Source: Cordylochernes scorpioides (taxonomy: Eukaryota > Arthropoda > Arachnida > Pseudoscorpiones > Chernetidae). Taken from it: a stretch of 64,000 bases of DNA. The notes below the pieces were generated by a model. The model saw nothing but the letters and a program-made list of their open reading frames with translations, was not told where the DNA came from and did no database searches. Below are positions 15,541 to 54,734 of the stretch, piece by piece (within the stretch, counting starts at the first letter, position 1; each line of letters starts with the position of its first letter). The DNA is taken from contig CP092886.1 in NCBI GenBank assembly GCA_030710605.1, forward strand, positions 50,398,390 to 50,462,389, written 5' to 3'. The position numbers were made by a program, and so were the translations under genes.

Positions 15541-15544
15541 CAGT

Positions 15545-19646: not shown

Positions 19647-19682
19647 TATATATTACATAAAATAAAAGAGCTATTTGTTGAG

Positions 19683-22756: not shown

Positions 22757-22764
22757 ACTAGAAC

Positions 22765-25755: not shown

Positions 25756-25760
25756 ATATA

Positions 25761-25938: not shown

Positions 25939-25977
25939 TTGCCCCCTTCCTAGATGAACAGCGTCCCGCTGTAACTA

Positions 25978-29790: not shown

Positions 29791-30208
29791 TGGTCTGTTC
29801 GTCTTTGGCTTGGCGTCTGGTTGGATACTGATGTGTCTTGGTCAGGGTACCGCTGTCTAGGTGTCAGGGTGAATACCCTTGTTCGGCTTGCACTGGGGTT
29901 GTGGTCTTTGGACCGGATTAGAAATCGCGGCTAGATTTTTTTCAATTTCTTCTCTGATAATTGTCTCGAGGAGAGGTTCTGGAGCGGTTGGTGCGGCCTT
30001 TAATGCACGATGGACTTATTCGCGGACTATCCGTCTGATTAAGTCCTCCGTCGATTCGGACTTTACTGGATCGATCGAAACAACGTTGGGAAGTCTATCG
30101 ACCACTATGCCCTTGTTCAGACGTTGCTTGTTTGAGTTTTCGATTTTTCTGCACAACCTAATAAAATTTTCAGTGGTGTCTATTTCCAAAACGACAATTT
30201 ATCTATAA

Positions 30209-30388
30209 GTAGAGAAGACAAGTATTCCAAAAGCTTAATTAAAAATAATTTATTAATTGAACTTATATATTGCAAAATGTGTCAATTGATTTTACAATTA
30301 GTAATTTACAAGCATGGTAAGGGGAGATGACTATGAAAATATTCATGATGATAAACAACAGAGTATTCACAATAATTATTCAGTGACA
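30209..30388 (-). repeat. 5' LTR of gypsy 2
   Basis: 180 bases, near-identical to 25761-25938 apart from its missing inner tip and a small insertion (AAGGGG near 30320). Confidence 0.8.
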
Positions 30389-30393
30389 ATATA

Positions 30394-31442
30394 AATTAGT
30401 GTGACCGAACCATTTTGAATGAATCAATTATCTAATCAGAAATAAAATGATATATATAGTATATTTAACTAGCTTTGTTTTAACTGTAGGAAATATTGCG
30501 GTATGTCTATTTTTCTATTAATACTGTTTTTATCATCTATAGATGCCCAGCTCTCCAGATATTATTTTGAATGTTTGTCCTGTATGTTGCTGTATAAAAC
30601 TATTTTATTTTCAAAATCTGGAGTCATGGTCATACAATCAAGCGAGGACACATAGCAGATCGGCCCCTCAATTTTTGGACTCAGGGGTTATTGCCCGGTC
30701 CTTGGAATATACATTGCTTCTTGAATATACGAGACATATATATTAATAAAAATTATAAACAGACATGTTTTTGATTTTTTAATATATATTATGATTACAT
30801 ATAAAAATACACAATATTTTAATATAATTAAGTATCTTCATTTTAAAATATAAACATGTTGTCAGCGGGCAATAATAAAGAAAAATATATTGTATTTTTA
30901 ATTTTTGTGTTATTATCTGCTCATTTACCTTTTCTTTTTATTTTTCAAGTTGGTAATAAATAAGAGGAATCCCATATTTTCTATAGATAGTATTAGTGCC
31001 TGTTGATGTGTCTATCACACATTCTACTAAAAATATTTTGCGTCCTGAGAGAATTTTGATAAATTATTCAGTATTTAGTCTGTCTGGGAGAATGGTCTTT
31101 AGTTAAAATCAATATTCGGAATATGAATGGCTCAAAATTTCAAATTTATATATTTATTGTTCTAAGTTGGGAAACACAAAAATAAAACTTTAGCTGTATC
31201 TAAAAGAATATAAAATTAGAATATTAATGAGAATTTATCACAAAAATATAAATATTTTAAAATTATAAAATAGATTTTTTCCTCTCAGAAAGCATATTTA
31301 AAAAAAAATGTATTATTATTATTTTTTTTATTTCTTGAAAATATTTTAATACATTCGTAAACAAACTTCAAGAGGTTATATGGTTTCTAGAAATTTTCTA
31401 ACTTTGTTTAAAATCTACTACAATCTTGTGCTTGTGCGCTAG
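30394..31442 (+). other. Intron sequence, no gene recognised
   Basis: AT-rich interval up to the next dynein exon. A possible 11-base micro-exon at 30490-30500 was considered and rejected because it breaks phase. Confidence 0.4.
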
Positions 31443-31625
31443 ATTAACCACAGAGTAAGAACGTTGAAGACCATTTTGGAAGTATGGATGGCAGACTTTG
31501 CATATATTCGAACCAAAATCGAAAAAACGGAACGATGTGGTCGATGGAATTTCAATATCGAAAATTTATTCGCCGAAACCAGATATTTGGTGAGGATATG
31601 CAGTGATTTGGAAGATATTTTTGAG
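31443..31625 (+). CDS. DNAH10-like: Axonemal dynein heavy chain exon, DHC_N1 tail
   Basis: Sixty-one codons between acceptor tgcgctag and donor gtaag, phase 0. Key residues: LKTILEVWMADFAYIRTKIE, then RWNFNIENLFAETRYLVRIC. In DNAH10-type chains the equivalent block is W--Y---R-KIE---...-RWEFD---LF--TDYMA-ICQDL. This is the most diagnostic part for the paralog assignment. Confidence 0.9.
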
Positions 31626-31684
31626 GTAAGATACATACCTTTATTCTTCAACTTCGAATTTCATTAACTTTGTGTCTTTTTCAG

Positions 31685-31801
31685 GAACTTTACAATATAA
31701 CCACTCTGTTTACACCATTGCTTAAATGTGTTAAACGGGATTCAACTGAAATCAGTTCAATCATCGCAAACGTAAGAAACATCTATCATATGGTTGGAAA
31801 T
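31685..31801 (+). CDS. DNAH10-like: Axonemal dynein heavy chain exon, DHC_N1 tail
   Basis: Thirty-nine codons after acceptor ctttttcag and before donor gtaagt, phase 0. The residues ELYNITTLFTPLLKCVKRDS align with the family's E-FYNIFGPELKAVT-D. The preceding intron is only 59 bases. Confidence 0.88.
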
Positions 31802-31856
31802 GTAAGTATTAAAAATATTAGCATTTTCCTCTTCTAATTTATTTGTTGTTTTTCAG

Positions 31857-32105
31857 GCGAAGTTCAACATCTATAAGGTTCTTAATAAAAAATACTGGAA
31901 ATTCTTTTGTGATGACGTTCATACAGAAATCTACAATGTAGAGACGGCTTGCCTGAACTTCATTGACAAAATTTTCGGAACACTCTCTTCATCTGAAAAA
32001 GCTCTCCAATTTATCCGTGATTTTAAAACTCTGATCATTCCCGAGTGCATCAACGACCTGCTGGATAGAAAGTTGGAGAATATCATCAGAATCTATCTGA
32101 TAGAA
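31857..32105 (+). CDS. DNAH10-like: Axonemal dynein heavy chain exon, DHC_N1 tail
   Basis: Eighty-three codons, acceptor tttttcag, donor gtaggt, phase 0. It reads KKYWKFFCDDVHTEIYNVE, FIDKIFGTLSSSEKALQFI and LLDRKLENIIRIYLIE. In the family this is the -FI--SF-TLRSAE-AF--L--F block and the helix ending KFDDIL-QY-KEV. The next part of the protein should begin with a short linker and a KNMPPVAG-I-W motif. That part is found not downstream on this strand but on the - strand at 51900-51724. Confidence 0.9.
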
Positions 32106-32501
32106 GTAGGTCTCACTCTTTTCTTGCTCATTTTTATGTTACCTACTCTACTACAATATGAATTATTGTAAATAGTTTTCACGCGCAATTATCCAGATCG
32201 TATATAGCATGTCTTATTTGTAACTGGTAATAAATAAATGTAAGAAAAAATGATATAATTATATATATAAATCCATCGCATTTTTTTAAGTTTCTTTATT
32301 AACCACGAACTTTCGAGCTCTTGCTCTTCAGCGGGTAAATGTGATATAAAGAGTGAACGTGGGAGGGAGCTATCTATGGTATTCAATTTTGTTTTTAAAC
32401 TATCTATATGAAGAGACCGTTTTTTAAATGAGGAAATGAATTGCATTTTCATCATTATTATTGCTCGTTACTTTATAGCATTTATTTTAAAGTTCAATAT
32501 A

Positions 32502-33921
32502 CACTGCGTGACATTGAAAATGGAACACCAAGAAATAGTGGCCAGAAAGTGATGAAACTCGGCAGACAGAGAGAGACAGGGACGAACAATAAGTGATCTT
32601 TATTTCAAAATGATAGTCATAATACAGAGCGAGAACGGCGTCGGCTTAGTAGCAAGTAGGACCACCGCGGACGGCGATGCACGCAGCAACACGTCTAGGT
32701 AGAGAGTCAATCAGAGTACGGATGGCGTCCTGAGGGATGGCTCTCCATTCCCTCTCAACCATTTGCCACAGTTCGTCTTCTGAACGCGGCTGTGGCAAGG
32801 CATGCAAACGGCGTCCAATGATGTCCCAGACGTGCTCGATTGGTGAGAGATCAGGAGAGTACCGTGGCCAGGGAAGCATCTGTACATCTTGCAGAGCTTG
32901 TTGGCTAATGCGAGCAGTGTGCGGTCGGGCGTTATCCTGCTGATAAAGGGCATTGGGTACCCCCTGAAGGTAGGGGAGTGTCACCGGTCGCAGCACATCA
33001 TCAACGTATCGTTGGGCCGTCATAGTGCCCTGAATACGAAGTAAAGGTGACCTGGAATCATACGCGATTGCGCCCCAAACCATGATTCCACGTTGTCGCA
33101 CGGTGGGGCGTTCCACAATTGCTGCCGGATTGGACCTTTCTCCACGTCGACGCCACACGCGTAAACGGCGACTATCACTGGACAAGCAGAAACGCGACTC
33201 ATCTGAGAACACGACCCTGTGCCATTCCGTCATCCACGTCGATCTAGCCCGGCACCATTCCAAACGTTGGCGCCTATTCGTTGGGGGTCAATGGCAGTCT
33301 TCTTAGCGGACGGCATGAGTGCAAGCCATTAGCAACCAATCGACGGGAAATGGTTCTGGTCGAGATGGAATGATCTAGGGTGTCTTGCACATGTTGCAGG
33401 ATGGCGGTACAAGTGGCTTGTGGGGCCGCCACTGCTTGTCGAAGGATACGCCGATCCACACGTGCTGACGTCACTCTGGTTGCACCGACATTCCTATAAA
33501 TTGCCACATTTCCTTGTTCCAACCATCTTCTCCACAGTAGGTGCACCGTGGACGCACCAAGGTGTGTATCAGCTGCGATTTGACGTATGGACCAACCTGC
33601 CCTTTTCAGTCCGATCACCATGCCCCTCGCAAAAGCGTCTGTCTGCTTGAACTGCCTCCGTTTACGATGACCTGGCATTCTCTGTTATTACACGTGTCTT
33701 TTGACACAAGAACAAAATTTCTACAATGATTTTCCTTGAAGAAATAACGACACGAATACTGTCCTTTCTGCAAGTTCCTTCCCTTATATCTTACTCCATG
33801 TGCGCACGAGAGCTGCGCATTTTACATCATTTGCATAACTCGGTTAGGCGCGTCTACCCTGAAATTTGCATAATTTTCTGGCCACTATTTCTTGGTGTTC
33901 CATTTTCAATGTCACGCAGTG
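32502..33921 (-). mobile_element. Tc1-type transposon, arm 1
   Basis: 1420 bases flanked by TA (32500-32501, 33922-33923). Terminal inverted repeats of about 47 bases begin CACTGCGTGACATTGAAAAT. It is the same insertion as 60024-61443 in arm 2. Confidence 0.9.
32646..33678 (-). pseudogene. Tc1 transposase with one frameshift, arm 1
   Basis: Transposase that would cut and paste the element. The first ORF (33678-33274) holds paired helix-turn-helix motifs (GWSIRQIAADTHLGASTV, IRTISRRL-like segment). The second (33263-32646, 205 codons without a native ATG) holds the catalytic domain: FSDESRF, YQQDNARPHTA and SPIEHVWD give the D, D and E. The spacing between the second D and the E is 32 residues by my count, against 34 in classic Tc1. 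A single-base frame change near 33270 separates the two parts. The same change is in the arm 2 copy. Confidence 0.9.
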
Positions 33922-35259
33922 TATTTACAACAACAAAAAGCTTTATTAAGACCTTTTAATCTTATACAGATTCTCAAGGCAGAAATGTAGAATACATGCA
34001 GGAAAAAGGTAATAGTACCTTAATGGTATTTTGATATTTATATACAGGAAAAATTATATAAAGACGAGCTAATAAATAGATTAGTCTGGGTATATTGGAG
34101 GAAAATAAATTTATTATACATGGATTTACCATGGATTCACCGCAAATGAAGATAAAAAGAAAAAGCTAATCACGATCAATATTGACATAATGAAATTAAT
34201 ACATTATAATAAATACAATTAATCTCATAAACAGATTTGAAAATCAATTTAATTTTGAAAAGGATCAACGGGAGATAAAAAAATATCTACACAGAGCTTG
34301 GCTTTATCAGTGCCAAAACCCTCTTCGGCTGTTTCAAAATTCAATCTACCACGTCGCCAAAAATTTTGTTTATTTCTAATTCGCTTAGTTAATCTACCTA
34401 TTTGGTACCTAATCCTGGAAATGATTTAATATAATATACGCCTTAATTTTGATATATACATATTTATTTGGAAAAATAAAAACTATAATATGAATCGTAT
34501 TTCTAAATATATGTAGGTATATACGGTTTCAGGTTTATTCGTCCACTGATTGATTCCCTACTCTCACGTGTATTGATCAGTCAATTAACGTTGAATTCAT
34601 TTGCCAATTCGCGTGAAATTTATTTCAATTCAGTTATTGCATTGGGCAATGAAGTACGTTACTAAATATAAAATTGTGGATACGAGATTTTAAATTTTTC
34701 TCTCTCAATTTTATGGCGACACTAAAATGTTTCTACCTTTAGTAATTATTTTTTAATTTCAAAAGCATATTCGCTTCAGGGTTTTATATGTGAAACACAT
34801 TCATATAGAGGTGTGTTATAAGGTTTTAACGTTTGATGTCCTTATTCTATAAATGGAAAATTTTGCGGAGCTAGAATATAGTTGCATTTCATTATATCAA
34901 CACATTTTGAGGTTTAATTATTCTTGAGATTCCCCGTCGCGTGTACGAAGGCCAATGTTCATAAATATTCAGATATGATTTAGTGGTGTTATATAGAAAT
35001 TGCAGACGCTTATAGCTTTGAGAACTTCTCTTCATCTTGAAGGACAAAACACATAACCTTATTTAGGAAAATTATTTGAACACAACACCAAACGCCATCT
35101 ATGTTTTAAAATGTGAAATTATCACCAAAGTTGATAATTTGTCTTTCAAATATAAAATAATTTAATCATCGATAATTCATAAGAATTTCACATTTTCAAA
35201 GATAAATTACATAATGTGCAATAATTCCAATAAATTTTGAAAATTTAAGTATATTATTG
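33922..35259. other. No gene seen; sequence shared with arm 2
   Basis: AT-rich DNA with no coding signal, matching 58966-60023 and 54100-54370 in reverse. It contains, at about 34975-34980, the uninterrupted target sequence (ATATGATTTAGTGG) that is split by the copia element in arm 2. Confidence 0.6.
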
Positions 35260-35796
35260 CGAGGACGTCCAAAGGAGTTTAAAACTGACCATCGTCTGTG
35301 TATCGGAGGTCGGACTGACGAATCAGACAGAAGAATCGCCCATCTGGACGAGATTGAAGTATTTTTCTCTCGTGCTAAAGGCTGTTTTTAAATAATGCTC
35401 CCTGTATGTTAATTGCTTGCTCTCCATAATGCACAAAGGTAAATAAAGAGGAGTTGCGAACAGAGATACGTAACCGATTCCTCGTGCTCATTTGACTAAC
35501 CTTTAAACAAATGGTGTCAGAAGTGGAGATTCTCCGTTTCAGAAGACAATTCTGGATACCTATGAAAGCAGAAAATGGTAGTGGAACTAATTCAAGATCT
35601 CCTCTCAGCAACGAAAATATTTAGTGAAAAAAATTGAGGAAGATCGAGCAACAATCTGCAGTGTTGAATGAGAAAATGACAGAATACTCAGAAGGCTGAA
35701 CTTTGCAAATGGGGAACGCCTTATGAATAAAGGATCAAGATTGTGGATTGGATAAGGTAATGTCCAGACCGGTACTGTAGTTGAGGAAAGCAAACT
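35260..35796 (+). pseudogene. Gypsy 3 LTR and gag start, arm 1
   Basis: LTR-like sequence ends CTTTAAACA at about 35510. It is followed two bases later by TGGTGTCAGAAGTGGAG, a typical gypsy primer-site region, and then about 270 bases of broken gag up to the gap. It is the reverse of 53551-54090. The LTR start is uncertain. Confidence 0.6.
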
Positions 35797-35896
35797 NNNN
35801 NNNNNNNNNNNNNNNNNNNNNNNNNNNNNNNNNNNNNNNNNNNNNNNNNNNNNNNNNNNNNNNNNNNNNNNNNNNNNNNNNNNNNNNNNNNNNNNN
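35797..35896. other. 100-base assembly gap
   Basis: Exactly 100 N, a scaffold join. The left side ends inside arm 1 at the base matching about 53551. The right side begins inside a gypsy integrase relic. Confidence 0.95.
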
Positions 35897-36930
35897 CGAA
35901 TTAAAAACAAGTACTATTGACCTTTCATGCTGAAAGATGTTTTATATTCCGTAAATACTTGTCATCTTTGTCAAAGTAGAAAAGGCTCGAATCAGTTACC
36001 TTCTGTACTATTTCATCCTATTTCGCCAGCTAATTATTCTTTTGAGAGTAGGAATTCATTTTGTTGGGCCCAGGCCATCTAGAAAAAACAGAGGGGAAAT
36101 GGATAGTCGTGCTGACAGACTATTACACCAGGTATGCAGAAACAAAGGTGGTCTCAGAAGCGAAAGGAAAAGAAATCTCCAAATTGTTAACTGAAGAAAT
36201 ATTCCAACGTGACGGAGCTCCAAAGTTCCTTATTAACGATAGAGGCTCTCAATTTATTAGTAATTTTATCCAACTAATAATGAAGACGTGCAATATTAAA
36301 TCCTGATTTACAACAAGCTACCAGTCTAAGACCAATGGATTGACAGAACACCTAAATAAAATATTAATTAACATAGTCAGCATGTATGTGAACAAGGAGC
36401 AGGACTAAATCCTTCCATTTGTTACCATGCGTACAATACCACGATTCAGGAAACCACGGGCTCCTCTCTATTTGTCTTTTGTTTGGGAGATGTCTGTCTT
36501 AGAGGACTGAAATATCCTGGTAAATAAAAATTACGATAGAGAAAGATGAGCAAATAAAATATTACTTGAATAAACTAACCAGGATGAAACAAGTAGTCTT
36601 TAAAAACACAGAGAAGTCCCAGGAAAATCATGAAAAGAAACTATGATAAGAAACACAATGAGAGAAGTTATGAAACAGTATATTTTGTAGCATTTTGGAA
36701 ACCAGTTGCGAAAATCGAAAATTTTTTAAAAACTCCTCATATTTTAGCCCATATAGATACTCAACAAAATGCCTAACGTAAACTATTTGAAAGAATCGAA
36801 AGATAACGCTGGTCAAAACCCACTGATAGTTCATGTTTCTCGACTAAAGCCTTATTTTGAAAGGAATGATGAGGAGGTCATTCACGAGGACGTGACAACC
36901 TCTGGAGGGGTAGTGCTGCATCAAGTCTAA
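35897..36930 (+). pseudogene. Gypsy integrase relic at contig edge
   Basis: Broken integrase. A CHLCQSRKGSNQLP zinc-type motif lies near 35955. The core reads GKWIVVLTDYYTRYAETK and INDRGSQF (36061-36306), with TNGLTEHLNK near 36333 holding the catalytic glutamate. A C-terminal VHVSRLKPYFERNDEE is near 36830. Stops occur throughout. Whether it belongs to the gypsy element of arm 1 cannot be told across the gap. Confidence 0.7.
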
Positions 36931-37284
36931 TGCGGCCCTCTCTACTTATTCATTATAACTTCTCTATTATTTCAAAAAATATTTTAAATATTATTTTTTA
37001 AAAATGGAAAAGAAACTCTTCCCTCAACGAATTTTCTTTTATTTATAAAATATTATTTTATTTTAATATATAGATTATATGTATTATATTTATCATATAT
37101 TCTTTATATTTACTTTTATATCTCTTTATAAATGCTATTGGAAAGAAAAAAAGGAAAAGAGTAGTATTTATTTATTTAATTTCTATACAATGGTTGAAAC
37201 TCGTTCCGGGAAGACAGTCAATATGAGTGAAGAGAATATTAAGGTCGATGAACATGTCAAATTGCAACTCGGGGTGACAAAATA
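36931..37284 (+). other. AT-rich stretch with a possible gypsy gag start
   Basis: Low-complexity AT-rich sequence, then MVETRSGKTVNMSEENIKVD from 37190. MVxTRSG is a common start of gypsy gag proteins. The frame runs into the Tigger tip at 37285, which may have landed in it. Confidence 0.35.
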
Positions 37285-37639
37285 CACCTATCCCCCGATT
37301 TACACGGTACTTGTTTTACACGTTTTCGCTTTTACACGGTTTTCCAAATAAGTTTTTGTTTTTGTTTTTATCGCAATTTTTGTCGCGGGAAAATGCGGGA
37401 AATTTTGGAGGGAAATGATGGCAATTTACCAAATTGGTTTAATTAAAATAAAAAATTAAAACATTTTAATTTGAATAAAAATTATAATATAAAATATTTT
37501 TTAAAAAATAAAAGTTTTTAATCTTCCATCCAAAATTTCCCGCATTTTTTCCCTCTGAATTTTACTTTATTCACAGCCAAATTAACATAAATTTAAAAAA
37601 TATTATAGGCTTATAATGAAGAAAGAAGTTGAAAAGGAA

Positions 37640-38862
37640 AAGTTATTTCTTTAGAAACTAAAATCGAAATTTTGGCTCGCTTACGAAAGGGAGATAGAGT
37701 AGTAGATGTTGCAAAATCATATAGCATGAACGAAGCTACAATAAGAACTATTAGAATAAATGAAAACAATTAGAAAGAGTGTTGCAGCTGGCAATACAAC
37801 GAGTATGGGCACAACATCATACACCAGAAATATCGCAATGGAAAAAATAGAGCAAGCGTTAATGCTTTGGATAGATGATCAAACACAAAAAAAGAGTTCT
37901 TATTGATACGGGCGCTATAACAAATAAAGCATTACGAATTTACGAAAAAATTGTAGAGCAATTGCCATCTTCTTCTTCAACTGAAAAGAAGCCAAATTTT
38001 CTGGCAAGTCATGGCTGGTTTAAAAGATTTAAAATAAGACATTCTTTACACAGCTTAAAATTAAAAGGTGAACTGGCTTCTGGCGACGTAGATGCAGCCC
38101 AAGAATATCCAGCAAATTTTGCAGAAATTATTAACGACAATTCATACACCCCTGATCAGGTTTTCAATGCTGATGAGTCATGGTTATTCTGGAAAAAAAT
38201 GCCTGAAAGGACTTTTGTCTCAAAATTTTATAAATCGGCTAGTGGTCATAAAGCAGCAAAAGATCGCATAACAATTCTGTAGCAATGCTTCAGGAGATTA
38301 TATTATGAAACCATTAGTGATTAAAAAATCAAAAATGCCCCGTGCCTTTAAAGGAGTAAACATCAATAATCTTCCCGTTTATTGGAGGGCTAATAAGAAA
38401 GCGTGGGTAGTAATGCAATGTTTACTGAATGGTTTCATGAATGTTTATCCCAGATGCCAAAATAATATTTAGGTTCAAAGGGATGGCCTTTTAAAGTGCT
38501 TTTGTTAATTGACAATGCGCCGGGTCACCCACAAGATCTAGAATATGAGAACGTTAAAGTAAAATTTTTACCAAAAAATACACCACTTCATTATTACAAC
38601 CATTGGACCAAGGCATAATTTCTACTTTAAAAGCTTTGTACATAAAACGAGCCTTTACATATATTTTGGAACAAATGGAGAACAATGAATCTTTAACAGT
38701 TATTAGTGCTTGGAAAAATTTTACAATGTTAGACTGTGTGAAGCATATCGCCTTATCATACACTGGGATTAAGCAAACAACGCTAAATAGCTGTTGGAAA
38801 AAATTGTGGCCAAATGTATTCAAAAATGAACATTCCATTTCAACGTTAAATGAATATTCGCA
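37640..38862 (+). pseudogene. Tigger transposase, N-terminal and DDE part
   Basis: A psq-like helix-turn-helix (SLETKIEILARLRKGDRVVD, then ATIRTI) lies near 37650. A CENP-B/Tc5-type DNA-binding domain (NFLASHGWFKRFKIRHSL; 37875-38282) follows. The DDE_1 nuclease shows FNADESWLFWK (first D), then LLIDNAPGHPQDLE near 38505 (second D) and LDQGIISTLKALY near 38605 (third D). Frameshifts near 37750, 38280 and 38590 and a stop in 38471 region break it. The frame ends at the Helitron tip. Confidence 0.8.
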
Positions 38863-38864
38863 GA

Positions 38865-40792
38865 CTAGCCGAGTGACCCGGGCAACGCCCCGGGTTTACC
38901 CGAAGGACCCGCAGGTGAGAAACTATAGAAGAAAAATTTTAACAAATCAGAAAATGAAATTGCAAACAACAGAACTACACTACTTTAAGGACATGAGAGC
39001 ACATGCACTGTATCACCATACGTGTACCATTTTCAAAGACCCTGCTTAGGATTAAAACTTCTCAGAAGCATAACAATAGTACCAACCTAGAGGTTAACTG
39101 GTGTTGATGCATTCCTCTGGGAGTGAGACTATTGAGAAATTCAGTAGGGAGTTATTTTGCTTCTCCGCATTCTAACACTCCAACTGTTAACACTGCGGAA
39201 ACACTGACTCATGTTTGGTAAGCAATTTCAGGGAAGAAACTATCGACATTGGATTAAATAAATTATTAATTAAATTGCATTAAATAAAAATTATTAGATT
39301 TAAATAAATATTATTAGAGTGAAAAAAAAAGAAAGAAATTAACAAATTAGAAAATAAAATTTCGAAAAATACAACTATATTGCAGATAAGATAAGAGGAC
39401 CTTATTAAAAAATACATAAACAAACTGTAATTCGACACTCGATAATTCGACACTTTCGATAATTCGACACTTTCGATAATTCGACCATTTTAAAAATCAA
39501 ATTTACAAGGTTGATTGTTGTTTAAATACAACTTTGCTTTTGCATGCATAAACACAGGCTCTTGTAGCAAGAACCCAAATATTATTTATAGTCATAGCAA
39601 AAGCCAACTTTAGTGAAAACTGATGCCTCTTCAGAATGAATGGAAGACTGAAATCTGAAGGAGCAGAAGATATGGGTCATTTATACTTTCACCAATGCCT
39701 TTAGGATCTTTGCGATGGAACGCGTATGGTGTTTCAGCGCATGTGCTCTCATGTCCTTGAAGCACATATACTGACAGTGCCCAAAGTTGAACACACTGTA
39801 TAGTGTCTGAAATATCTTTGGCCCCTTCGGATACCAACCTTCGCTTCATTCTAGAGAGGCGTTAGTTTTCACTAAGGTTGGCTTTTACTATGACTATAAA
39901 TAAGGCTCAAGGCCAAACCTTGGCTACAAGAGCCTGTGTTTACGCACGGACAACTTTATATGTGGCTTTTTCAAGTGTGCGAACATTGGATAGCATACAT
40001 GTAAAGATGACCCATATCTTCTGCTCCTTCAGATTTCAGTCTTCCATTCATTCTGAAGAGGCATCAGTTTTCAATAAAGTTAGCTTTTGCTATGACTATA
40101 AATAATATTTAGGTTCTTGCTACAAGAGCCTGTGTTTATGCATGCAAAATCAAAGTTGTATTTAAACAACAATCAACCTTATAAATTTGATTTTTAAAAT
40201 GGTCGAATTATCGAAAGTCTCGAATTATCGAAAGTGTCGAATTATCGATAGTGTCGAATTACAGTTTGTTTATTTATTTTTTAATAAGGTCTTCTTATCT
40301 TATCTGCAATATAGTTGTATTTTTCGAAATTTTATTTTCTAATTTGTTAATTTTTTCTTTTTTTTTCACTCTAATAATATTTATTTAAATCTAATAATTT
40401 TAATTTAATGCAATTTAATTAATAATTTATTTAATCCAATGTCTATAGTTTCTTCCCTGAAATTGCTTACCAAACATGAGTCAGTGTTTCCACAGTGTTA
40501 ACAGTTGGAGTAAAAGAATGCGGAGAAGCAAAAAAACTCCCTACTGAATTTCTCAATAGTCTTACTCCCAGAGGAATGCATCCACACCAGTTAACCTCTA
40601 GGTTGGTACTATTGTTATGCTTCTGAGAAGTTTTAATCCTAAGCAGGGTCTTTGAAAATGGTACACGTATGGTGATACAGTGCATGTGCTCTCATGTCCT
40701 TAAAGAAGTGTAGTTCTGTTGTTTGCAATTTCATTTTCTGATTTGTTAAAATTTTTCTTCTATAGTTTCTCACCTGCGGGTCCTTCGGGTAA
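38865..40792 (-). mobile_element. Helitron end organised as a large palindrome
   Basis: On the - strand a Helitron-type 3' terminus ends at CTAG (38868-38865). It is preceded by a GC hairpin (CCCGGGGCGTTGCCCGGG). The next 785 bases (38896-39680) recur inverted at 40007-40792, so two copies lie tail outward. The right copy stops just short of the hairpin, where the satellite begins. Between the arms is a Helitron helicase fragment. Both arms carry an 18-base minirepeat (AATTCGACACTTTCGAT). Confidence 0.7.
39864..40005 (+). pseudogene. Helitron helicase C-terminal fragment
   Basis: The + strand reads FTMTINKAQGQTLATRACVY, then LYVAFSSVRTLDSIHVK. This is the last conserved part of the Pif1-type helicase in RepHel proteins (pattern F-MTINKSQGQ-L ... 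LYVA-SR). A shortened, damaged version (LAFAMTINN) occurs on the - strand in the left arm near 39600. Confidence 0.75.
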
Positions 40793-43700
40793 TGTATATA
40801 AAAAAGCAAAGCCCAATTCTAAACCCAAATATTTTTTTTATGAGAAGAACATCAACATATTGCATGATTACGGCAGTCCATAGCTTCCCTGACAAAAATT
40901 CACCAAGAAAGTTAAATATTCCAAAACTTTTCTGTGTGTAAATTGCTAAATATGTAAAAAACATGTATACAAAAAAGCAAAGCCCAATTCCAAACCCAAA
41001 TATTTTTTTTATGAGAAGAACATCAACATAATGCATGATTACGGCAGTCCATAGCTTCCCTGACAAAAATTCACCAAAAAAGTTAAATATTCCAAAAATA
41101 TTTCTGTGTATATATTGCTAAATGTGTAAATAACATGTATATAAAAAAGCAAAGCTTAATTTTAAATTTCATTATCCTTTCCACAGGAAAAGCATCAAAA
41201 TACTGCATAAGTACGGCACTTTTGCAGCCACATGATTACGGCAGTCCATAGCTTCCCTGACAAAAATTCACCAAGAAAGTTAAATATTCCAAAATTTTTC
41301 TGTGTGTAAATTGCTAAATATGTAAAAAACATGTATACAAAAAAGCAAAGCCCAATTCCAAACCCAAATATTTTTTTTATGAGAAGAACATCAACATAAT
41401 GCATGATTACGGCAGTCCATAGCTTCCCTGACAAAAATTCACCAAAAAAGTTAAATATTCCAAAAATATTTCTGTGTATATATTGCTAAATGTGTAAATA
41501 ACATGTATATAAAAAAGCAAAGCTTAATTTTAAATTTCATTATCCTTTCCACAGGAAAAGCATCAAAATACTGCATAAGTACGGCACTTTTGCAGCCGCA
41601 TGATTACGGCAGTCCATAGCTTCCCTGACAAAAATTCACCAAGAAAGTTAAATATTCCAAAATTTTTCTGTGTGTAAATTGCTAAATATGTAAAAAACAT
41701 GTATACAAAAAAGCAAAGCCCAATTCCAAACCCAAATATTTTTTTTATGAGAAGAACATCAACATAATGCATGATTACGGCAGTCCATAGCTTCCCTGAC
41801 AAAAATTCACCAAAAAAGTTTAATATTCCAAAAATATTTCTGTGTATATATTGCTAAATGTGTAAATAACATGTATATAAAAAAGCAAAGCTTAATTTTA
41901 AATTTCATTATCCTTTCCACAGGAAAAGCATCAAAATACTGCATAAGTACGGCACTTTTGCAGCCGCATGATTACGGCAGTCCATAGCTTCCCTGACAAA
42001 AATTCACCAAGAAAGTTAAATATTCAAAATATTTTCTGTGTGTAAATTGCTAAATATGTAAAAAACATGTATACAAAAAAGCAAAGCCCAATTCCAAACC
42101 CAAATATTTTTTTTATGAGAAGAACATCAACATAATGCATGATTACGGCAGTCCATAGCTTCCCTGACAAAAATTCACCAAAAAAGTTAAATATTCCAAA
42201 AATATTTGTGTGTATATATTGCTAAATGTGTAAATAACATGTATATAAAAAAGCAAAGCTTAATTTTAAATTTCATTATCCTTTCCACAGGAAAAGCATC
42301 GAAATACTGCATAAGTACGGCAAAAACATGTATACAAAAAAGCAAAGCCCAATTCCAAACCCAAATATTTTTTTTATGAGAAGAACATCAACATAATGCA
42401 TGATTACGGCAGTCCATAGCTTCCCTGACAAAAATTCACCAAAAAAGTTAAATATTCCAAAAATATTTCTGTGTATATATTGCTAAATGTGTAAATAACA
42501 TGTATATAAAAAAGCAAAGCTTAATTTTAAATTTCATTATCCTTTTCACAGGAAAAGCATCAAAATACTGCATAAGTACGGCACTTTTGTAGCCCCCCTG
42601 ACAAAAATTCACTAAAAGAGGTAAGTATTCAAAAAAATATTTTGGTATATATATTGCTAAATGTGTAACAAACATGTATATAAAAAAGCAAAGCTTAATT
42701 CTAAGTTCTAATATTTTTTTTATAAGAAAAGCTACAAAAGCAAATAGGGAGAAGTGAAGCCATTTAGCCATTTTCAAAATCTGATTGTGAAAGAGTAAAA
42801 AAATGAGTAAATAAGAGCAAATATAAAGAAAAAGTATTGCTAAATGTGTAATAAACATGTATATAAAAAAGCAAAGCTTAATTCTAAATTTCATTATCCT
42901 TTCCACAGGAAAAGCATCAAAATACTGCATAAGTACGGCACTTTTGCAGCCGCATGATTACGGCAGTCCATAGCTTCCCTGACAAAAATTCACCAAGAAA
43001 GTTAAATATTCCAAAACTTTTCTGTGTGTAAATTGCTAAATATGTAAAAAACATGTATACAAAAAAGCAAAGCCCAATTCCAAACCCAAATATTTTTTTA
43101 TGAGAAGAACATCAACATAATGCATGATTACGGCAGTCCATAGCTTCCCTGACAAAAATTCACCAAAAAAGTTAAATATTCCAAAAATATTTCTGTGTAT
43201 ATATTGCTAAATGTGTAAATAACATGTATATAAAAAAGCAAAGCTTAATTTTAAATTTCATTATCCTTTCCACAGGAAAAGCATCAAAATACTGCATAAG
43301 TACGGCACTTTTGCAGCCGCATGATTACGGCAGTCCATAGCTTCCCTGACAAAAATTCACCAAGAAAGTTAAATATTCAAAAAATTTTCTGTGTGTAAAT
43401 TGCTAAATATGTAAAAAACATGTATACAAAAAAGCAAAGCCCAATTCCAAACCCAAATATTTTTTTTATGAGAAGAACATCAACATAATGCATGATTACG
43501 GCAGTCCATAGCTTCCCTGACAAAAATTCACCAAAAAAGTTAAATATTCCAAAAATATTTCTGTGTATATATTGCTAAATGTGTAAATAACATGTATATA
43601 AAAAAGCAAAGCTTAATTTTAAATTTCATTATCCTTTTCACAGGAAAAGCATCAAAATACTGCATAAGTACGGCACTTTTGTAGCCCCCCTGACAAAAAT

Positions 43701-46165
43701 TCACTAAAAGAGGTAAGTATTCAAAAAAATATTTTGGTATATATATTGCTAAATGTGTAACAAACATGTATATAAAAAAGCAAAGCTTAATTCTAAGTTC
43801 TAATATTTTTTTTATAAGAAAAGCTACAAAAGCAAATAGGGAGAAGTGAAGCCATTTAGCCATTTTCAAAATCTGATTGTGAAAGAGTAAAAAAATGAGT
43901 AAATAAGAGCAAATATAAAGAAAAAGTATTGCTAAATGTGTAATAAACATGTATATAAAAAAGCAAAGCTTAATTCTAAATTTCATTATCCTTTCCACAG
44001 GAAAAGCATCAAAATACTGCATAAGTACGGCACTTTTGCAGCCGCATGATTACGGCAGTCCATAGCTTCCCTGACAAAAATTCACCAAGAAAGTTAAATA
44101 TTCCAAAACTTTTCTGTGTGTAAATTGCTAAATATGTAAAAAACATGTATACAAAAAAGCAAAGCCCAATTCCAAACCCAAATATTTTTTTATGAGAAGA
44201 ACATCAACATAATGCATGATTACGGCAGTCCATAGCTTCCCTGACAAAAATTCACCAAAAAAGTTAAATATTCCAAAAATATTTCTGTGTATATATTGCT
44301 AAATGTGTAAATAACATGTATATAAAAAAGCAAAGCTTAATTTTAAATTTCATTATCCTTTCCACAGGAAAAGCATCAAAATACTGCATAAGTACGGCAC
44401 TTTTGCAGCCGCATGATTACGGCAGTCCATAGCTTCCCTGACAAAAATTCACCAAGAAAGTTAAATATTCAAAAAATTTTCTGTGTGTAAATTGCTAAAT
44501 ATGTAAAAAACATGTATACAAAAAAGCAAAGCCCAATTCCAAACCCAAATATTTTTTTTATGAGAAGAACATCAACATAATGCATGATTACGGCAGTCCA
44601 TAGCTTCCCTGACAAAAATTCACCAAAAAAGTTAAATATTCCAAAAATATTTCTGTGTATATATTGCTAAATGTGTAAATAACATGTATATAAAAAAGCA
44701 AAGCTTAATTTTAAATTTCATTATCCTTTTCACAGGAAAAGCATCAAAATACTGCATAAGTACGGCACTTTTGTAGCCCCCCTGACAAAAATTCACTAAA
44801 AGAGGTAAGTATTCAAAAAAATATTTTGGTATATATATTGCTAAATGTGTAACAAACATGTATATAAAAAAGCAAAGCTTAATTCTAAGTTCTAATATTT
44901 TTTTATAAGAAAAGCTACAAAAGCAAATAGGGAGAAGTGAAGCCATTTAGCCATTTTCAAAATCTGATTGTGAAAGAGTAAAAAAATGAGTAAATAAGAG
45001 CAAATATAAAGAAAAAGTATTGCTAAATGTGTAATAAACATGTATATAAAAAAGCAAAGCTTAATTCTAAATTTCATTATCCTTTCCACAGGAAAAGCAT
45101 CAAAATACTGCATAAGTACGGCACTTTTGCAGCCGTATGATTACGGCAGTCCATAGCTTCCCTGACAAAAATTCACCAAGAAAGTTAAATATTCCAAAAT
45201 TTTTCTGTGTGTAAATTGCTAAATATGTAAAAAACATGTATACAAAAAAGCAAAGCCCAATTCCAAACCCAAATATTTTTTTATGAGAAGAACATCAACA
45301 TAATGCATGATTACGGCAGTCCATAGCTTCCCTGACAAAAATTCACCAAAAAAGTTAAATATTCCAAAAATATTTCTGTGTATATATTGCTAAATGTGTA
45401 AATAACATGTATATAAAAAAGCAAAGCTTAATTTTAAATTTCATTATCCTTTCCACAGGAAAAGCATCAAAATACTGCATAAGTACGGCACTTTTGCAGC
45501 CGCATGATTACGGCAGTCCATAGCTTCCCTGACAAAAATTCACCAAGAAAGTTAAATATTCAAAAAATTTTCTGTGTGTAAATTGCTAAATATGTAAAAA
45601 ACATGTATACAAAAAAGCAAAGCCCCATTCCAAACCCAAATATTTTTTTTATGAGAAGAACATCAACATAATGCATGATTACGGCAGTCCATAGCTTCCC
45701 TGACAAAAATTCACCAAAAAAGTTAAATATTCCAAAAATATTTCTGTGTATATATTGCTAAATGTGTAAATAACATGTATATAAAAAAGCAAAGCTTAAT
45801 TTTAAATTTCATTATCCTTTTCACAGGAAAAGCATCAAAATACTGCATAAGTACGGCACTTTTGTAGCCCCCCTGACAAAAATTCACTAAAAGAGGTAAG
45901 TATTCAAAAAAATATTTTGATATATATATTGCTAAATGTGTAACAAACATGTATATAAAAAAGCAAAGCTTAATTCTAAGTTCTAATATTTTTTTTATAA
46001 GAAAAGCTACAAAAGCAAATAGGGAGAAGTGAAGCCATTTAGCCATTTTCAAAATCTGATTGTGAAAGAGTAAAAAAATGAGTAAATAAGAGCAAATATA
46101 AAGAAAAAGTATTGCTAAATGTGTAATAAACATGTATATAAAAAAGCAAAGCTTAATTCTAAGTT
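40793..46165. repeat. Satellite array with higher-order structure
   Basis: A 5.4-kb tandem array. The monomers are related units of about 165-200 bp, each starting ATGTATA-AAAAAAGCAAAGC. In the left third (40793 to about 42320) types A and B alternate as a 368-bp dimer. From 42498 the array is built of six monomers in fixed order with a period of 1092 bp: landmarks recur at 42448, 43540, 44632 and 45723. This gives three full copies and a partial one that stops within the D monomer. Copies of the 1092-bp unit are almost identical. The - strand frames encode repeated hydrophobic peptides (CFFIYMF-THLAI); I do not regard them as genes. Confidence 0.9.
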
Positions 46166-47000
46166 TTAATATAAAGAAGAAATAAGACACAAAAATGTAG
46201 CTAAATTCAAATGAAAAACTATAACAAATTAATAAAAAAAAATAAGACCTAATTCAAATGCCACCATCATCAGACAAAAGAAAAAATGAGATTTTATTCT
46301 TTAGTTCATTTATTCTTCTGTCTGATGCTGTTGCTGAAACGTCACACACTATTGAAGACACTATAAAAGATAGATTAAAAGTAATAATTCAATCTACAAT
46401 TCGAAAAATAATATAACCTGGTGAGTTCCCAGAAAAGGTTAACTTTGGTAGGCGGCGCTGTACGTTGACACCGCCGTACCTTCGAGCCGTTTTACACGAG
46501 TTAAAGCGAAGATTTTGGACATAGTGATTTTTACATTTCGATCTTTTATATGAATATATATACTTACTATTTCGAATTATTTTTCTAAAAACGAACATTA
46601 TTTTTTTTAATTATCTGAAACTAACCTAATTCAACTTATCTAAAACTAACCTTATTTAGCGATTAAACTAACATAATTTAACCTATTTGAATCTAACCTC
46701 ATATACACTTTTACACTACCTTTTCATTTCAAAATTAAATTAAAATAAGTTTATATTAAATAATAACATTTTTTAAAATCGACTTTCTGGTTCACACTTT
46801 CGTATCTAATCAATTATGTATTTCTTTATTTTTCTCTATAAAAGTTACGCAATTGTAAACAAAAGAATTGATGATGATAAATGCAAAAAATCTACGATTG
46901 TAAAATAGATTAAATTAAAAAATAAAAATAACTGTTAACATTAGGAAAATAAAAACAGGCCTATGACACGAAGAAAAAAATAACGAAAATTTTGGTATAT
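46166..47000. other. No gene seen; short palindrome and CTAACC-like runs
   Basis: AT-rich. A small inverted repeat (CAGACAAAAGAA / TTCTTCTGTCTG) lies at about 46273-46325. Loose CTAACCT/AACCTA words cluster at 46618-46700. No ORF was supported. Confidence 0.45.
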
Positions 47001-47019
47001 AGATTGTTATGTGTAGTTC

Positions 47020-47196
47020 AGAATCTTCGGAGGAGATAGCTCAGGACTTTACAATGGAAAACTCTGTTACGGTATTATCTATATAGATAGTACAGATGGC
47101 GCATTCATTGGGCGGAGAAGGTTTTGATGATTTTACTAATGGTGATATCGCAGAGTTAATGGCTGATAAAGAACTAAGTGAGGATGATTTAGTTAA
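47020..47196 (+). pseudogene. Tigger transposase, penultimate block
   Basis: Encodes GGEGFDDFTNGDIAELMADK then ELSEDDLV, the stretch that follows the DDE domain in Tigger transposases. It ends at the Penelope-like insertion. Confidence 0.7.
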
Positions 47197-47249
47197 AAGA
47201 GAAAACGAAAATATAACGTGGTGAGTTTCTTTTTATTGAAAATACAAGC

Positions 47250-47274
47250 TTTCAAGCAAAACGCTTTTCTTCAG
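47250..47274 (-). ncRNA. Hammerhead-ribozyme-like core in Penelope arm (left)
   Basis: Inverted twin of 48195-48219: the - strand reads CTGAAGA (47274-47268), stem and loop, then GAAA (47253-47250). The same limits apply. Confidence 0.4.
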
Positions 47275-47491
47275 GTAATCCAAGAAAATGTGCGGAGAGG
47301 TATATACACCCAACTAAGTAAGATTTGAATATTGAAGCGGAATTGCCACGAACAAGCACGTATCAACACACCTAGAGAGCGAGCAAGAAATCCAGTTTAA
47401 AATAAGTTTAAAATAAATAAAATATATACATAAATCGGGAAAACACTTGAGGTTAAAATTCCTTATGCGGGATCCATGCTATTACAAAAAG

Positions 47492-47892
47492 CTATGTACT
47501 GCGAGGGTAGTTCAATTTTTCTATTGAGGCTCGGATTTTTATTGGAAACCAAAGCCTCCAGGACCAGTCGTTGATATTTTCCGCGTATGTTACTGTAAAT
47601 ACATTGGGTGTCTGTAAATCAAATGAATGCTGTGTTTCTGCCATGTGCTGATAAATCTGGGAACGGCTGTCTTTGTTCATGATGTTTCTATTGTGTTCTT
47701 AGTCCTGATTTCAATGGTTCTGCCGGTTTCACCAACATAATGTAGTTCGCAATTTGAGCATTTAATTTTGTACACTGCGTTAGAGGCGGATAGTGGGTCC
47801 TGCTTTTTAGAACTTTTTGTGATGGGATGCTGGAGTTTGAGTTCGACGGAAGGTGAAATACTAAAATACGTACGAACACCGTATTTTCTCAA
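47492..47892 (-). pseudogene. GIY-YIG endonuclease fragment of a Penelope-like element
   Basis: The - strand gives AVYKIKCSNCELHYVGETGR (47677-47892), the GIY-YIG start, preceded by residues typical of the linker from RT. After a frame change near 47680 it continues QIYQHMAETQHSFDL. The pattern Y-I-C--C---YVGETGR ... H----H-FD is that of Penelope-type endonucleases, which nick target DNA for priming. About 120 residues remain. Confidence 0.85.
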
Positions 47893-48194
47893 GAAACGGG
47901 CAATATCGACGTTGGTTTCGGAATACGGGAGAACGCAAGTCTCAATAGAAAAATTGAACTACCCCCGCAGTACATAGCTTTTTGTAATAGCATGGATCCC
48001 GCATAAGGAATTTTAACCTCAAGTGTTTTCCCGATTTATGTATATATTTTATTTATTTTAAACTTATTTTAAACTGGATTTCTCGCTCGCTCTCTAGGTG
48101 TGTTGATACGTGCTTGTTCGTGGCAATTCCGCTTCAATATTCAAATCTTACTTAGTTGGGTGTATATACCTCTCCGCACATTTTCTTGGATTAC

Positions 48195-48219
48195 CTGAAG
48201 AAAAGCGTTTTGCTTGAAA
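48195..48219 (+). ncRNA. Hammerhead-ribozyme-like core in Penelope arm (right)
   Basis: CTGAAGA (48195-48201), a 4-bp stem AAGC/GCTT with loop GTTTT, then GAAA (48216-48219). This fits the conserved core (CUGANGA - stem II - GAAA) of hammerhead ribozymes described in Penelope-like elements. I could not confirm stems I and III or a cleavage triplet. The inverted twin is at 47250-47274. Confidence 0.4.
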
Positions 48220-48301
48220 GCTTGTATTTTCAATAAAAAGAAACTCACCACGTTATATTTTCGTTTTCTCTTTTAACTTTTAAAACGTGGCTAAAGTATG
48301 T

Positions 48302-48699
48302 ATGATTTAGTTAACTTAGTTTGCGAAAGTGAGTCTGACAAATCTGATGAAGAGGAATTAGTACCAGTAACATTCACTGCTAAAGTCATCCGCGAAGGAC
48401 TCGCGTTGGGAAGAAAGCTGGGTAATCATTTTATGCAAAATGACACAAACGTTGAAAGGGCTTTACGATTTCAACGTGACATAAATCGCTGCTTGGCTCA
48501 ATATGAAGAAGTTTACAAAGATCTTACAAAAAATTCGAATCAATTGTTAATAACCGATTTTATTACCATCTCTCATAATGTAAATATTTCTGCTTCAAAC
48601 ATCGAATCGGCACAAATAACTTCGAGTGATGAAAGTGAATTCGAACCTTTGATTCCGAAAAAAAGAATGAGAGTAATTTCTGACAGTGATGAAGGATAA
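48302..48699 (+). pseudogene. Tigger transposase C-terminal tail
   Basis: An open frame of about 130 codons, acidic at its start (ESESDKSDEEELVPV), then AKVIREGLALGRKLGNHFM, ERALRFQRDINRCLAQYEEV, and an end KKRMRVISDSDEG. This is the usual acidic-helical tail of Tigger transposases. It joins in sense to the block ending at 47196. Confidence 0.75.
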
Positions 48700-49132
48700 T
48701 AAAACACCTTTGGTTTTATTTTTTGTTCTTCTGTTTATGCATGTATTGTATTTATATAAAAAAACAGTGTTTCCTTAATATATTACATATTTTAACCTGT
48801 CAATGCATTTTATTTTTATTTCTGTGTACACCTAAAAATATTGAAAAAAATCATAGCTGTAAAATAGCAAAATTATGCATTTTCTGCAAGCTTTTCGATT
48901 CACACGGTTTTGACTTGAAAATTTTTAATTTTCGATTTACACGTTTTTCTCAAGAACGTATCTACCGTGTAAATCGGGGGATAGGTTATATATATACGTA
49001 TAATGATCTCAAAAATAACGGATATTTAAGCAAAAACACCTTTCGAGTTAAATCAAAATAATTAAAATTCATTTAACATTTTGTCAGTGTATCAAAGTAT
49101 ATTATGCAAAGTTTATAAACAACCAATCTTAC
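48700..49132. other. Tigger 3' end and intron, no gene
   Basis: AT-rich tail of the Tigger element with its inverted tip at about 48964-48987, then dynein intron. Confidence 0.5.
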
Positions 49133-49450
49133 CTGTAAAGAAATACCGCAGATCAGATCAGGGATCGAATGTCCTTGTTTTTGGATATGCCTCGCTTCTA
49201 TTATAAATTCATATAAATTTACCGGAAAGCAGCAGTAAAGTTGTTCGCATAATAACTGAGTAAAATTAAGTTTTTTTTTATCATTTGCTTTTTTTATAAA
49301 ATATTCCATCGGAATTCCATCTTTCCTTTGCAGCAAACGTTTATACAAAAGGCCTTTAACAACCCCCTTCTGATTTTCCGACCAGTGGTCGACAATTTCA
49401 GCCTCCAGAACTTTGATGCTCCTCGAAAAATCGAGAAAACTTTGCTCGAG
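49133..49450 (-). CDS. DNAH10-like: Axonemal dynein heavy chain exon, end of DHC_N1
   Basis: 106 codons on the - strand between acceptor cctttttgtgcgcag and donor gtaag, phase 0 at both ends. It reads FLDFSRSIKVLEAEIVDHWS, then GLLYKRLL, LLCEQLYCCFPVNLYEFI and EARHIQKQGHSIPDLICGIS. In dynein tails this is the W------L---LL-R block followed by I-E-KYL--LG--IPE-AL. It follows the exon at 51724-51900 in protein order. It is on the opposite strand to the earlier exons at 16.7-32.1 kb. Confidence 0.88.
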
Positions 49451-49556
49451 CTGCGCACAAAAAGGAGAGGGTCGGTTTTGTACAAAATAGCAATATTTGA
49501 CCTCTAAAGATAATCTACATGCATTAATATTTTGAAAATAGAGAAATCCATAAATA

Positions 49557-50910
49557 GATCTTTAATTAAAAAGGCATATATATTGGATCAAAATATAATT
49601 TCTTTTACCAATATTTCAATTGGCTGAACGCCAACCTTTTTCAAGGTATTATAACATATTAATGTGTGTAAACAACAAACTCAGCGCCACATACCGTCAA
49701 TAGAATTAAGTTAAAAATATGTTTGTCCATATATTAAATGGGGGGAAAACTTTTTCTATATAAATATGTCATAATTTGTATATACCAAGATGTAATCCCA
49801 CTACAATCTATGCAATGTATCGTCCAAACAGTTTTAATAAAAGTTAGGCCTCGCGAAAAAGAGAGAACAGCATTTACCAGGATTGCATCATCCAGGAAGT
49901 AAAGGTCACTACCCAGGAACCATAAAACTAAGTTCAAAGACCTTCTTCTTCCTAGAGGATGGTAATCATGAAAAGACAATGGAGGTACCAATATCCAATC
50001 AGAGTTCAGAATGAATAACTAACAGCCAACCAAAAGTAACCACGTAGACGATCTCAACCAATGAGAGGCATAGAGAGTTAACGAGGAAAATCTCGGACTC
50101 AAAGTTAGTCAGTAGGAAGGCGACCCGACTAGGAGCAAGACGTGCCCATCCCTTCTTTCACCAAGGTAACATTTTCTCCGATAATGTGATAGGAAAGTAC
50201 CCCATTTAGTCTCAAAACTTGCTCTCCCTTATTCGCGAAGTCTTAGATTCAATCCCATCCTGGTTTCCCTCTCGTTATTTCCCCTGTGAAACCCTACCAT
50301 TCAACTACGACTGCGCCATCAACCACCACAACTCACCAATCCTACAGTAAGTCAACAGGATCTTACATAGGAACAACAATCAACAATCAAAAAAGGGCAA
50401 ATTATTATAAATACATATCATAACCAAAATAAATTTTGTAAAATAAGGGTATTTTGAATATTAAATATACGCATATTTTATATTATATATAATTATTATA
50501 TATTTTTATTTAAAAATCTTTACACATAGTACAAATAATTGTAAATATAAAATATGCGTTATTGTTAATATTCAGAATATTCACACCTTTATTTTACAAA
50601 TTTTATTATATATTATTTATTACAATATTTATTTTATTTTAAAAAATCATACGCATCTATAATAGTTTCGAATTTTCATAACAGATGGCGCGCTAATACA
50701 TCATATATATTTATATCAATTTTTTTTCTCCCCATTGAATATAGGGTGAAAATATTTTTAAACTTAATTCTACTGACGTTATGTGGCGCTGAGTTTATTG
50801 TTTACACACATATGTTATAATATCTAGAAAAAGGTTGGCGTTCAGCCAACTGAAATATTGGTCAAATAAATTATATTTTGATCCAATATATGCCTTTTTA
50901 ATTAAAGATG
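49557..50910. repeat. Inverted pair of Penelope-like ends
   Basis: Arms of about 160 bases (49557-49720 and 50751-50910) are inverted copies around about 1 kb of spacer. Each carries a Penelope-type motif, on the outward reading: GAAAAAGGTTGGCGTTCAGC followed by CAA-TGAAATATTGG. The spacer (49721-50750) has no ORF I can name. Confidence 0.6.
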
Positions 50911-51723
50911 CATTAATATATTACAATATTTTGGGAGGAAGGTATTTATGTAGCAAAACGTTATCTCTCTCTTTAAAAATACATTTTTGTTTATAACGTG
51001 CTCTTGACGATAAAAAAAAAATGAGCCACGACGCCAGTGTTGGCTGATTCAGACACACATCCAACCTGTATACCATGGTTTCGGATTATGGCCCTCATTA
51101 ATACAGGAGCGGCTTCGATTTTATAGCTCTTCTCGTTGGATGTTATGAAATCGAAGCTGCTCCTTTATTGATAAGGGTCATAGCCCGAAACCAGGGTATG
51201 CAGGCTGTATATTGTCTGGATTTTCCAAAACTACTGTTTTGTCACATTCATCATTGCCATGGGTTGGCCAGATATTATGTACCAAAAATAAATCCATGTT
51301 TAGTGATTTTTGTTCCACTAAATGGCGCTCTGTCATCTAAAGTGCTCAAGTGAGCGGTCATATTATGCCTTTTTATTTTTAATATCAACACCTCACCTTT
51401 TTATTTAGATATTTATGTACCAAAGGAGATAATTTAAATATTAGTCGAAATCGACCGATTGTCATCTGGACCATTCTTTATTGCCACATTCAAGTTTCTA
51501 CTGAGGGTATAAACAAAAGGCATATATTTATTTTAAAAAGGAACTTTCTTAGTTTGTTTTCATACACACAAAAATATATAAAAATATAAATTCTTCGCTT
51601 CAAGAACTCTGCTAAAATATTATAAATTATTTATTCATTTTTCTCTATGTGATTATTTCTATAGGTTTTATTGAATAGGACTTAGGAAATATTTTTAAGA
51701 GATGAGCTAGAACATTTGCTTAC
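50911..51723. other. Intron sequence with a small foldback
   Basis: No coding signal. It contains the hairpin at 51068-51204 and Helitron-like AT-rich sequence near 51300-51420 that resembles 52290-52370. Confidence 0.4.
51068..51204. repeat. Small foldback element
   Basis: Arms of about 53 bases (about 51070-51122 and 51147-51202) pair with few mismatches, sharing GAAACCA-GGTAT and GGAGC-GCTTCGATTT. The loop is about 25 bases. Confidence 0.65.
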
Positions 51724-51900
51724 CTGCTTCTTTTTCTCCGGAGGACCTATGTATCCGCCGCGAAAGAATTCCACCATCGGGGCTCTTACACGATTAAGGA
51801 GTATGCGGTACCAGAAGATTTTGGCCGCGTTCTCAGGAATCTTATAGGCGGTGTGAGATTGCATTCTCTCAGGTGCGAATAATTCCTTCAGATATCGTTG
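51724..51900 (-). CDS. DNAH10-like: Axonemal dynein heavy chain exon, DHC_N1 tail
   Basis: Fifty-nine codons on the - strand, donor gtaag (51723-51719) and a likely acceptor ...ttgctccag (AG at 51902-51901), phase 0. It reads QQRYLKELFAPERM, then YKIPENAAKIFWYRILLNRV and PMVEFF. The family pattern is -V--L------PP--KN-PPVAGAI-W-R-L--RI--P, so this directly continues the exon ending at 32105 (+ strand). A second acceptor 14-15 bases upstream is possible. Confidence 0.85.
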
Positions 51901-54090: not shown

Positions 54091-54370
54091 TAATATATTT
54101 AAATTTTCAAAATTTATTGGAATTATTGCACATTATGTAATTTATCTTTGAAAATGTGAAATTCTTATGAATTATCGATGATTAAATTATTTTATATTTG
54201 AAAGACAAATTATCAACTTTGGTGATAATTTCACATTTTAAAACATAGATGGCGTTTGGTGTTGTGTTCAAATAATTTTCCTAAAAAGGTTATGTGTTTT
54301 GTCCTTTAAGATGAAGAGATGTTCTCAAAGCTATAAGCGTCTACAATTTCTATATAACACCACTAAATCA

Positions 54371-54631
54371 TGTTGGACACCAGCGCCGCCACTCAAGTAT
54401 AACACGTGACCGGAAGGATGACGTCGCCCCCCCCCCCCCCCCCCCCCCCTCCTACTGACTGTAAAAGTTTAGCCTAACGACGCTGTTGTTTGTTTACCTT
54501 CTACGGAGGATGTAACCTCTTTGTTTCCTCTCATTCCCTTTTTAATCTTTATATAACCTATGCTTTAATAAATTAGTTAGTGCAAGGCTCTTGTCCTAAG
54601 TGTAACCAAGTACCTTGTCTACACCCCTACA
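54371..54631 (+). repeat. 5' LTR of the copia element
   Basis: 261 bases with a run of 23 C near 54427-54449. A TATA-like TTTATATAACC and AATAAA lie downstream of it. Confidence 0.9.
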
Positions 54632-54734
54632 AGAGAAGATTATGTGAGAAGAGAATGATTGGAGCTGCCTGAAGCATTGAACGGTAAGCCTATTTTTGTT
54701 CTCTCTCCCCCCCTTCAGTGGACGCCATCTTATA

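Follow-up and report, generated by a model that had tools for sequence, protein, structure and literature searches.

An apparent strand switch within a dynein heavy-chain gene of Cordylochernes scorpioides is very probably an artefact of genome assembly

Does a dynein heavy-chain gene of Cordylochernes scorpioides change strand between its seventh and eighth exons? The question arises from a window of 64,000 bases (the whole stretch of DNA that was analysed; C24:50398390-50462389 in a genome of 2.62 Gb in 24 contigs), for which a sequence-only reading had placed dynein tail exons on the plus strand up to position 32105 and exons 8 (51900-51724) and 9 (49450-49133) on the minus strand. These coordinates were found to be right, the sequence KIFWYRILLNRV being located on the minus strand at 51822 and IPDLICGIS, also on the minus strand, at 49165, and the 100-N gap lies at 35797-35896 as described. 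Exons 7, 8 and 9 follow one another in correct order and phase, as judged from the splice sites (the donor GTAGGT follows exon 7 at 32105, exon 8 is flanked by the acceptor CCAG at 51900 and the donor GTAAGC at 51724, and exon 9 by the acceptor GCAG at 49450 and the donor GTAAGA at 49133), and the junction between exons 7 and 8 is phase 0 by arithmetic. Positions on the tail profile, Pfam DHC_N1 (PF08385, length 562), rise in the same order, from 280-352 for exon 7 (E 2.4e-6) through 360-401 for exon 8 (E 0.022, weak) to 416-495 for exon 9 (E 0.0053, weak). The inverted arms also exist, 32405-34981 matching 61540-58965 at 99.4% and 34975-35796 matching 54371-53551 at 97.9% (BLAST identity).

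The scale of the window was extended by fetching 100 kb on each side (264 kb in total), numbers below 1 or above 64000 being positions beyond the window. Reading from the left, contig Y (-65748 to -18239) is followed by the gap-bounded contig X (-18138 to 2491), a 100-N gap (2492-2591), contig A (2592-35796; 33,205 bases), the 100-N gap at 35797-35896 and contig B, which is gapless from 35897 to at least 164000. All sequence left of gap 35797 was compared with contig B, and six blocks of A, from 15948 to its last base, were found to be collinear with B in inverted orientation (96.5-99.4% BLAST identity). By substitution-only identity, A 15948-19660 corresponds to B 85465-81707 at 97.9%, A 21913-27095 to B 81728-76562 at 98.2%, A 29444-30211 to B 76560-75790 at 98.3%, and A 30236-32406 to B 74646-72478 at 98.5%; the two arms make up the fifth and sixth blocks, at 99.5% and 98.3%, respectively. 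Altogether, 15,225 of the 33,205 bases of A align in this manner, and the collinearity is broken solely by transposon insertions and one deletion. The unaligned parts of A are a transposon stack of 13,356 bases at the left end, which is non-collinear and consists of one TIR element (4784-15947) plus part of another, an insertion at 19661-21912, the interior of a gypsy element at 27096-29443, and 24 bases. The match is thus collinear and allele-like, the non-repeat part of A being contained in its partner and the unaligned rest being mostly transposon-derived. On A the inverted arm (32405-35796, plus strand) ends with the final base of the contig while still within the homology, and on B (53551-61540, minus strand) it is interrupted by an LTR element, Copia by eye. 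Within the window the arms seemed isolated, contig B being interrupted at that point by a TIR element of 10.9 kb (61541-72477); with the sequence outside the window they turned out to be just the inner end of an inverted match of 20 kb in which tail exons are included.

Each of four tail peptides of A gave two matches in the 264 kb, one on A (plus strand) and one on B (minus strand), the B copies spanning 79030-72776. The region at A 24614-25267 (outer limits approximate; DHC_N1 3-165, E 4.9e-24) has an identical peptide at B 79030-78377, that at A 31446-31628 (limits approximate; DHC_N1 174-233, E 1.8e-6) recurs at B 73438-73256, that at A 31685-31807 (limits approximate), identified by peptide match alone, recurs with one residue different at B 73199-73077, and exon 7 (A 31857-32105) recurs at B 73027-72779, the peptide match reaching 72776. 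For the exon 8 and exon 9 peptides there was a single match each in the 264 kb, on B (minus strand), and the B tail exons lie 5' of these two exons on the same strand of one gapless contig. The claim that the dynein gene itself changes strand is therefore not borne out, tail exons being on the minus strand in contig B too. Seven plus-strand exons had been counted originally, of which four were tested here (no coordinates had been given for the others); the second tail copy that was named at the time as the finding that would speak against a strand switch is present on contig B (minus strand) for all four. A genome search with a 300-base stretch of intron 7 (32106-32405) yielded two near-full-length copies, A at 100% and B at 99%; of 1,254 candidates 40 were scored, and the remaining 38 matches were partial. 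A protein search with the 24.5k ORF brought up 401 candidates, none of which received a score, and for exon 10, sought in B 49133-35897, no dynein match was detected among the 3 of 55 listed minus-strand ORFs that were put to Pfam.

Motor exons were picked by eye from the ORF lists left of contig A, and 14 ORFs were put to Pfam. A dynein family was matched at E below 0.01 for 10 of them; the other four (-684, -30542, -38617 and -56622) gave no dynein Pfam match, which counts against the explanation favoured below. On the minus strand of contig X were identified a piece of an AAA3 exon (2112-2252; AAA_7, E 6.3e-8) and an exon for AAA3 plus lid (1047-1442, in the ORF 1496-984; DYN_lid, E 1.3e-16; DNAH10, E 4.3e-43). 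On the minus strand of contig Y, Pfam matched AAA_8 at -21084, -22697 and -27497, MT at -35955 (E 1.1e-4) and -48198 (E 4.7e-4), both below the curated cut-off, and AAA_9 at -48637, -52633 and -54205. Ten motor peptides, of which seven have Pfam support, were matched 15 times within the 264 kb and always on the minus strand, five peptides matching both X and Y, three X only and two Y only. The orientation of contig B thus agrees with every motor match found on X and Y, and contig A alone appears to be reversed. Exons for the linker, AAA1, AAA2 and the C-terminal and N-terminal parts were not located, and a strict motor-motif scan of the 264 kb came out empty, although it also missed real motor exons.

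In four PDB sequence searches (tail, AAA3 and AAA4), DNAH10 scored highest among the chains named after a dynein class, a generic-named chain, 8glv_Cn, being on top in two of the searches and an odd-labelled chain, 9fqr_Hl (4,583 residues), in another. From these matches we infer that the tail and motor contigs belong to a single large gene on the minus strand, which encodes an axonemal dynein heavy chain of the DNAH10 class. The likeness to DNAH10, an inner-arm dynein, lies in its being the best class-named sequence match for both tail and motor pieces; the gene here differs in being divided among several contigs and in that large parts of it were not found. Contig X proved to be a direct copy of part of contig Y, -18138 to -2285 matching -37335 to -18931 in four blocks at 95.8-97.0%, and through this pair the AAA4 and stalk exons appear twice. 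Contig X is thus likely to be a second copy of part of Y, another false duplication within the same gene; no counterpart in X was found for the final 692 bases of Y, which counts against a haplotig explanation.

The transposons that differ between A and B fit two haplotypes. An LTR retrotransposon (54371-58965, plus strand; Copia-type by eye) is confined to B, with 2 differences between its LTRs in 252 aligned bases, while a gypsy-type element (by eye) occurs in A and B alike but has lost interior sequence in B, its LTRs in A differing at 8 of 172; these values fit an insertion of the former after, and of the latter before, the split between A and B. The 10.9-kb TIR element, which is on the plus strand and runs past the window end, is likewise in B only, with a TA target site and an empty site in A, and the other TIR copy, at 4784-15947 (plus strand), marks the left end of the A/B homology and is absent from B there. 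By arithmetic, the distance between exons 7 and 8 expected for the A allele, 5,342 bases, agrees to within 6 bases with the 20,879 bases in B once the two insertions there are subtracted.

Large elements that have CAGGGTGATCC at their termini and are flanked by TA were observed at 4784-15947 (11.2 kb), 61541-72477 (10.9 kb) and 92991-107181 (14.2 kb). Common to two of them are a transposase-like stretch and, inside the termini, LINE-type ORFs for endonuclease, RT and RNase H (PF14529, PF00078 and PF00075); for the one transposase-like ORF that was put to Pfam, nothing was matched at E 0.001. Such elements are possibly a DNA transposon with a LINE passenger, or the LINE-type ORFs may have come to lie inside the termini by nesting. 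Contig B also carries, between exon 9 and the gap, a tandem array (40792-46014) whose units are 172 bp long and which shows higher-order periods near 368 bp, and an inverted pair, 38896-39686 and 40792-40001, at 97%, beside which the ORF 37875-38282 encodes a Tc5-type transposase DNA-binding domain (PF03221, E 2e-7).

Taking these comparisons together, we consider it highly probable that contig A is a retained haplotig of the contig B region, that is, a second allele of part of B, placed backwards by scaffolding, and the strand switch is very probably an assembly artefact that holds no new biology. The copies would be alleles and the reversal a product of scaffolding. In the model proposed here, the gene would run on the minus strand, beginning with its tail in contig B and continuing with its motor in contigs X and Y, and parts of it would be present in the assembly twice, once from each parent; contig A, the second tail copy, would have been set backwards between two gaps, next to its own allele, and its reversal alone would give rise to the plus-strand tail exons, the apparent strand switch and the inverted arms, contig X likewise being a second copy of part of Y. 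Between A and B, 3 synonymous and 1 non-synonymous differences were found in 1,209 coding bases (four exons), with a non-coding divergence of 1.7%; between X and Y, 8 synonymous and 1 non-synonymous differences were found in 1,194 bases (five exons), with a non-coding divergence of 2.8%. If one copy had been dead since a duplication, 8.1 non-synonymous changes would be expected for A/B (Poisson P 0.0027) and 12.8 for X/Y (Poisson P 3.7e-5), under a simple model that ignores mutation bias and draws on four and five exons. Few coding changes set against 1.7% non-coding divergence are thus better explained by a living allele than by a dead duplicate. The block 32405-34981, in which 13 of 2,575 bases differ (0.5%) as compared with 1.5-2.1% in the other five, counts against the haplotig reading.

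The same two copies, with their independent transposon insertions, would also be seen if a recent event had truly duplicated the 5' part of the gene in inverted orientation, leaving contig A as a truncated plus-strand paralogue inside or beside the full gene. We regard this as unlikely, since contig A has gaps at both ends, the X/Y pair would need a second event, in direct orientation, that repeated the AAA4 and stalk exons of the same gene, and a dead partial copy should have gathered about 8 non-synonymous changes where 1 is seen. The last point is weakened in that few coding changes could equally mean a young duplicate under selection, and sequence alone makes no distinction between an allele and a very young paralogue; that A is such a recent inverted partial duplicate, a tail-only gene on the plus strand opposite the full gene and kept under selection, appears very unlikely.

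Extremely unlikely, in our judgement, is the proposal that a single gene has its 3' part inverted, or that contig B is misoriented, with the junction at 35796/53551. The order and phase of the exons fit it, and the segment once turned would give an intron of about 5.3 kb by arithmetic, but the upstream tail exons in B lie on the same strand as exons 8 and 9, and the homology on B continues past the arm. Because the A/B homology reaches the last base of A, where B simply goes on, 35796/53551 is a contig end rather than a breakpoint, and an inversion breakpoint at this position was rejected; so was a wrong orientation of contig B, the motor matches on X and Y being likewise on the minus strand. 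A sequenced breakpoint of a genuine inversion, with exons gone from their old place and strand, was not found, there being no contiguous sequence across 35796 and the tested tail exons being also on the minus strand in B. Turning the DNA between 35796 and 53551, the repair once suggested, would act upon a gapless contig that already carries tail exons together with exons 8 and 9 on the minus strand. The suspicion of a wrong join at gap 35797 was correct in kind but was directed at the orientation of contig B, the reversed contig being very probably A.

A haplotig of contig B set backwards would belong to a known class of assembly error. According to the purge_dups paper (PMC7203741), overlaps and haplotigs of heterozygous species remain in the primary set of contigs, to the detriment of scaffolding, and heterozygous overlaps are beyond what the linked-read and Hi-C scaffolders named there deal with. 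Ko et al. 2022 (PMC9516828) list as marks of false duplication a gap between the copies, half depth, discordant linked reads and one-copy k-mers, and describe a false duplication that inserted three exons of one gene into another. The present locus resembles the heterotype false duplication treated in these papers (PMC7203741, PMC9516828) in having two diverged, gap-separated copies and a broken gene model, and the assembly gap, one of the four marks of Ko et al., is found at 35797-35896 and 2492-2591. The term 'inver' is absent from Ko et al. (PMC9516828); the extra copy here is inverted, and hence mimics a strand switch. Elsewhere in the genome, C3:163443099-163445557 and C3:163458867-163456473 hold paralogous dynein exons in inverted copies (two longest blocks at 91.0 and 92.5%), the inverted match starting right at a 100-N gap (163456373-163456472) and the divergence being higher than for A/B; this pair may be another false duplication or may be a true duplication.

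A haplotig placed backwards can thus imitate a strand-switching gene, complete with inverted arms and matching splice phases. The order and phase of exons within one window do not discriminate it from a real inversion, and the comparison of contigs across gaps does so. Left uncorrected, the assembly would suggest an inversion and a truncated dynein gene, both of them false, and would break the DNAH10 model, to which the X/Y pair would add repeated motor exons. The value of the finding lies in the correction of the assembly, and it would add nothing new to the biology of this dynein.
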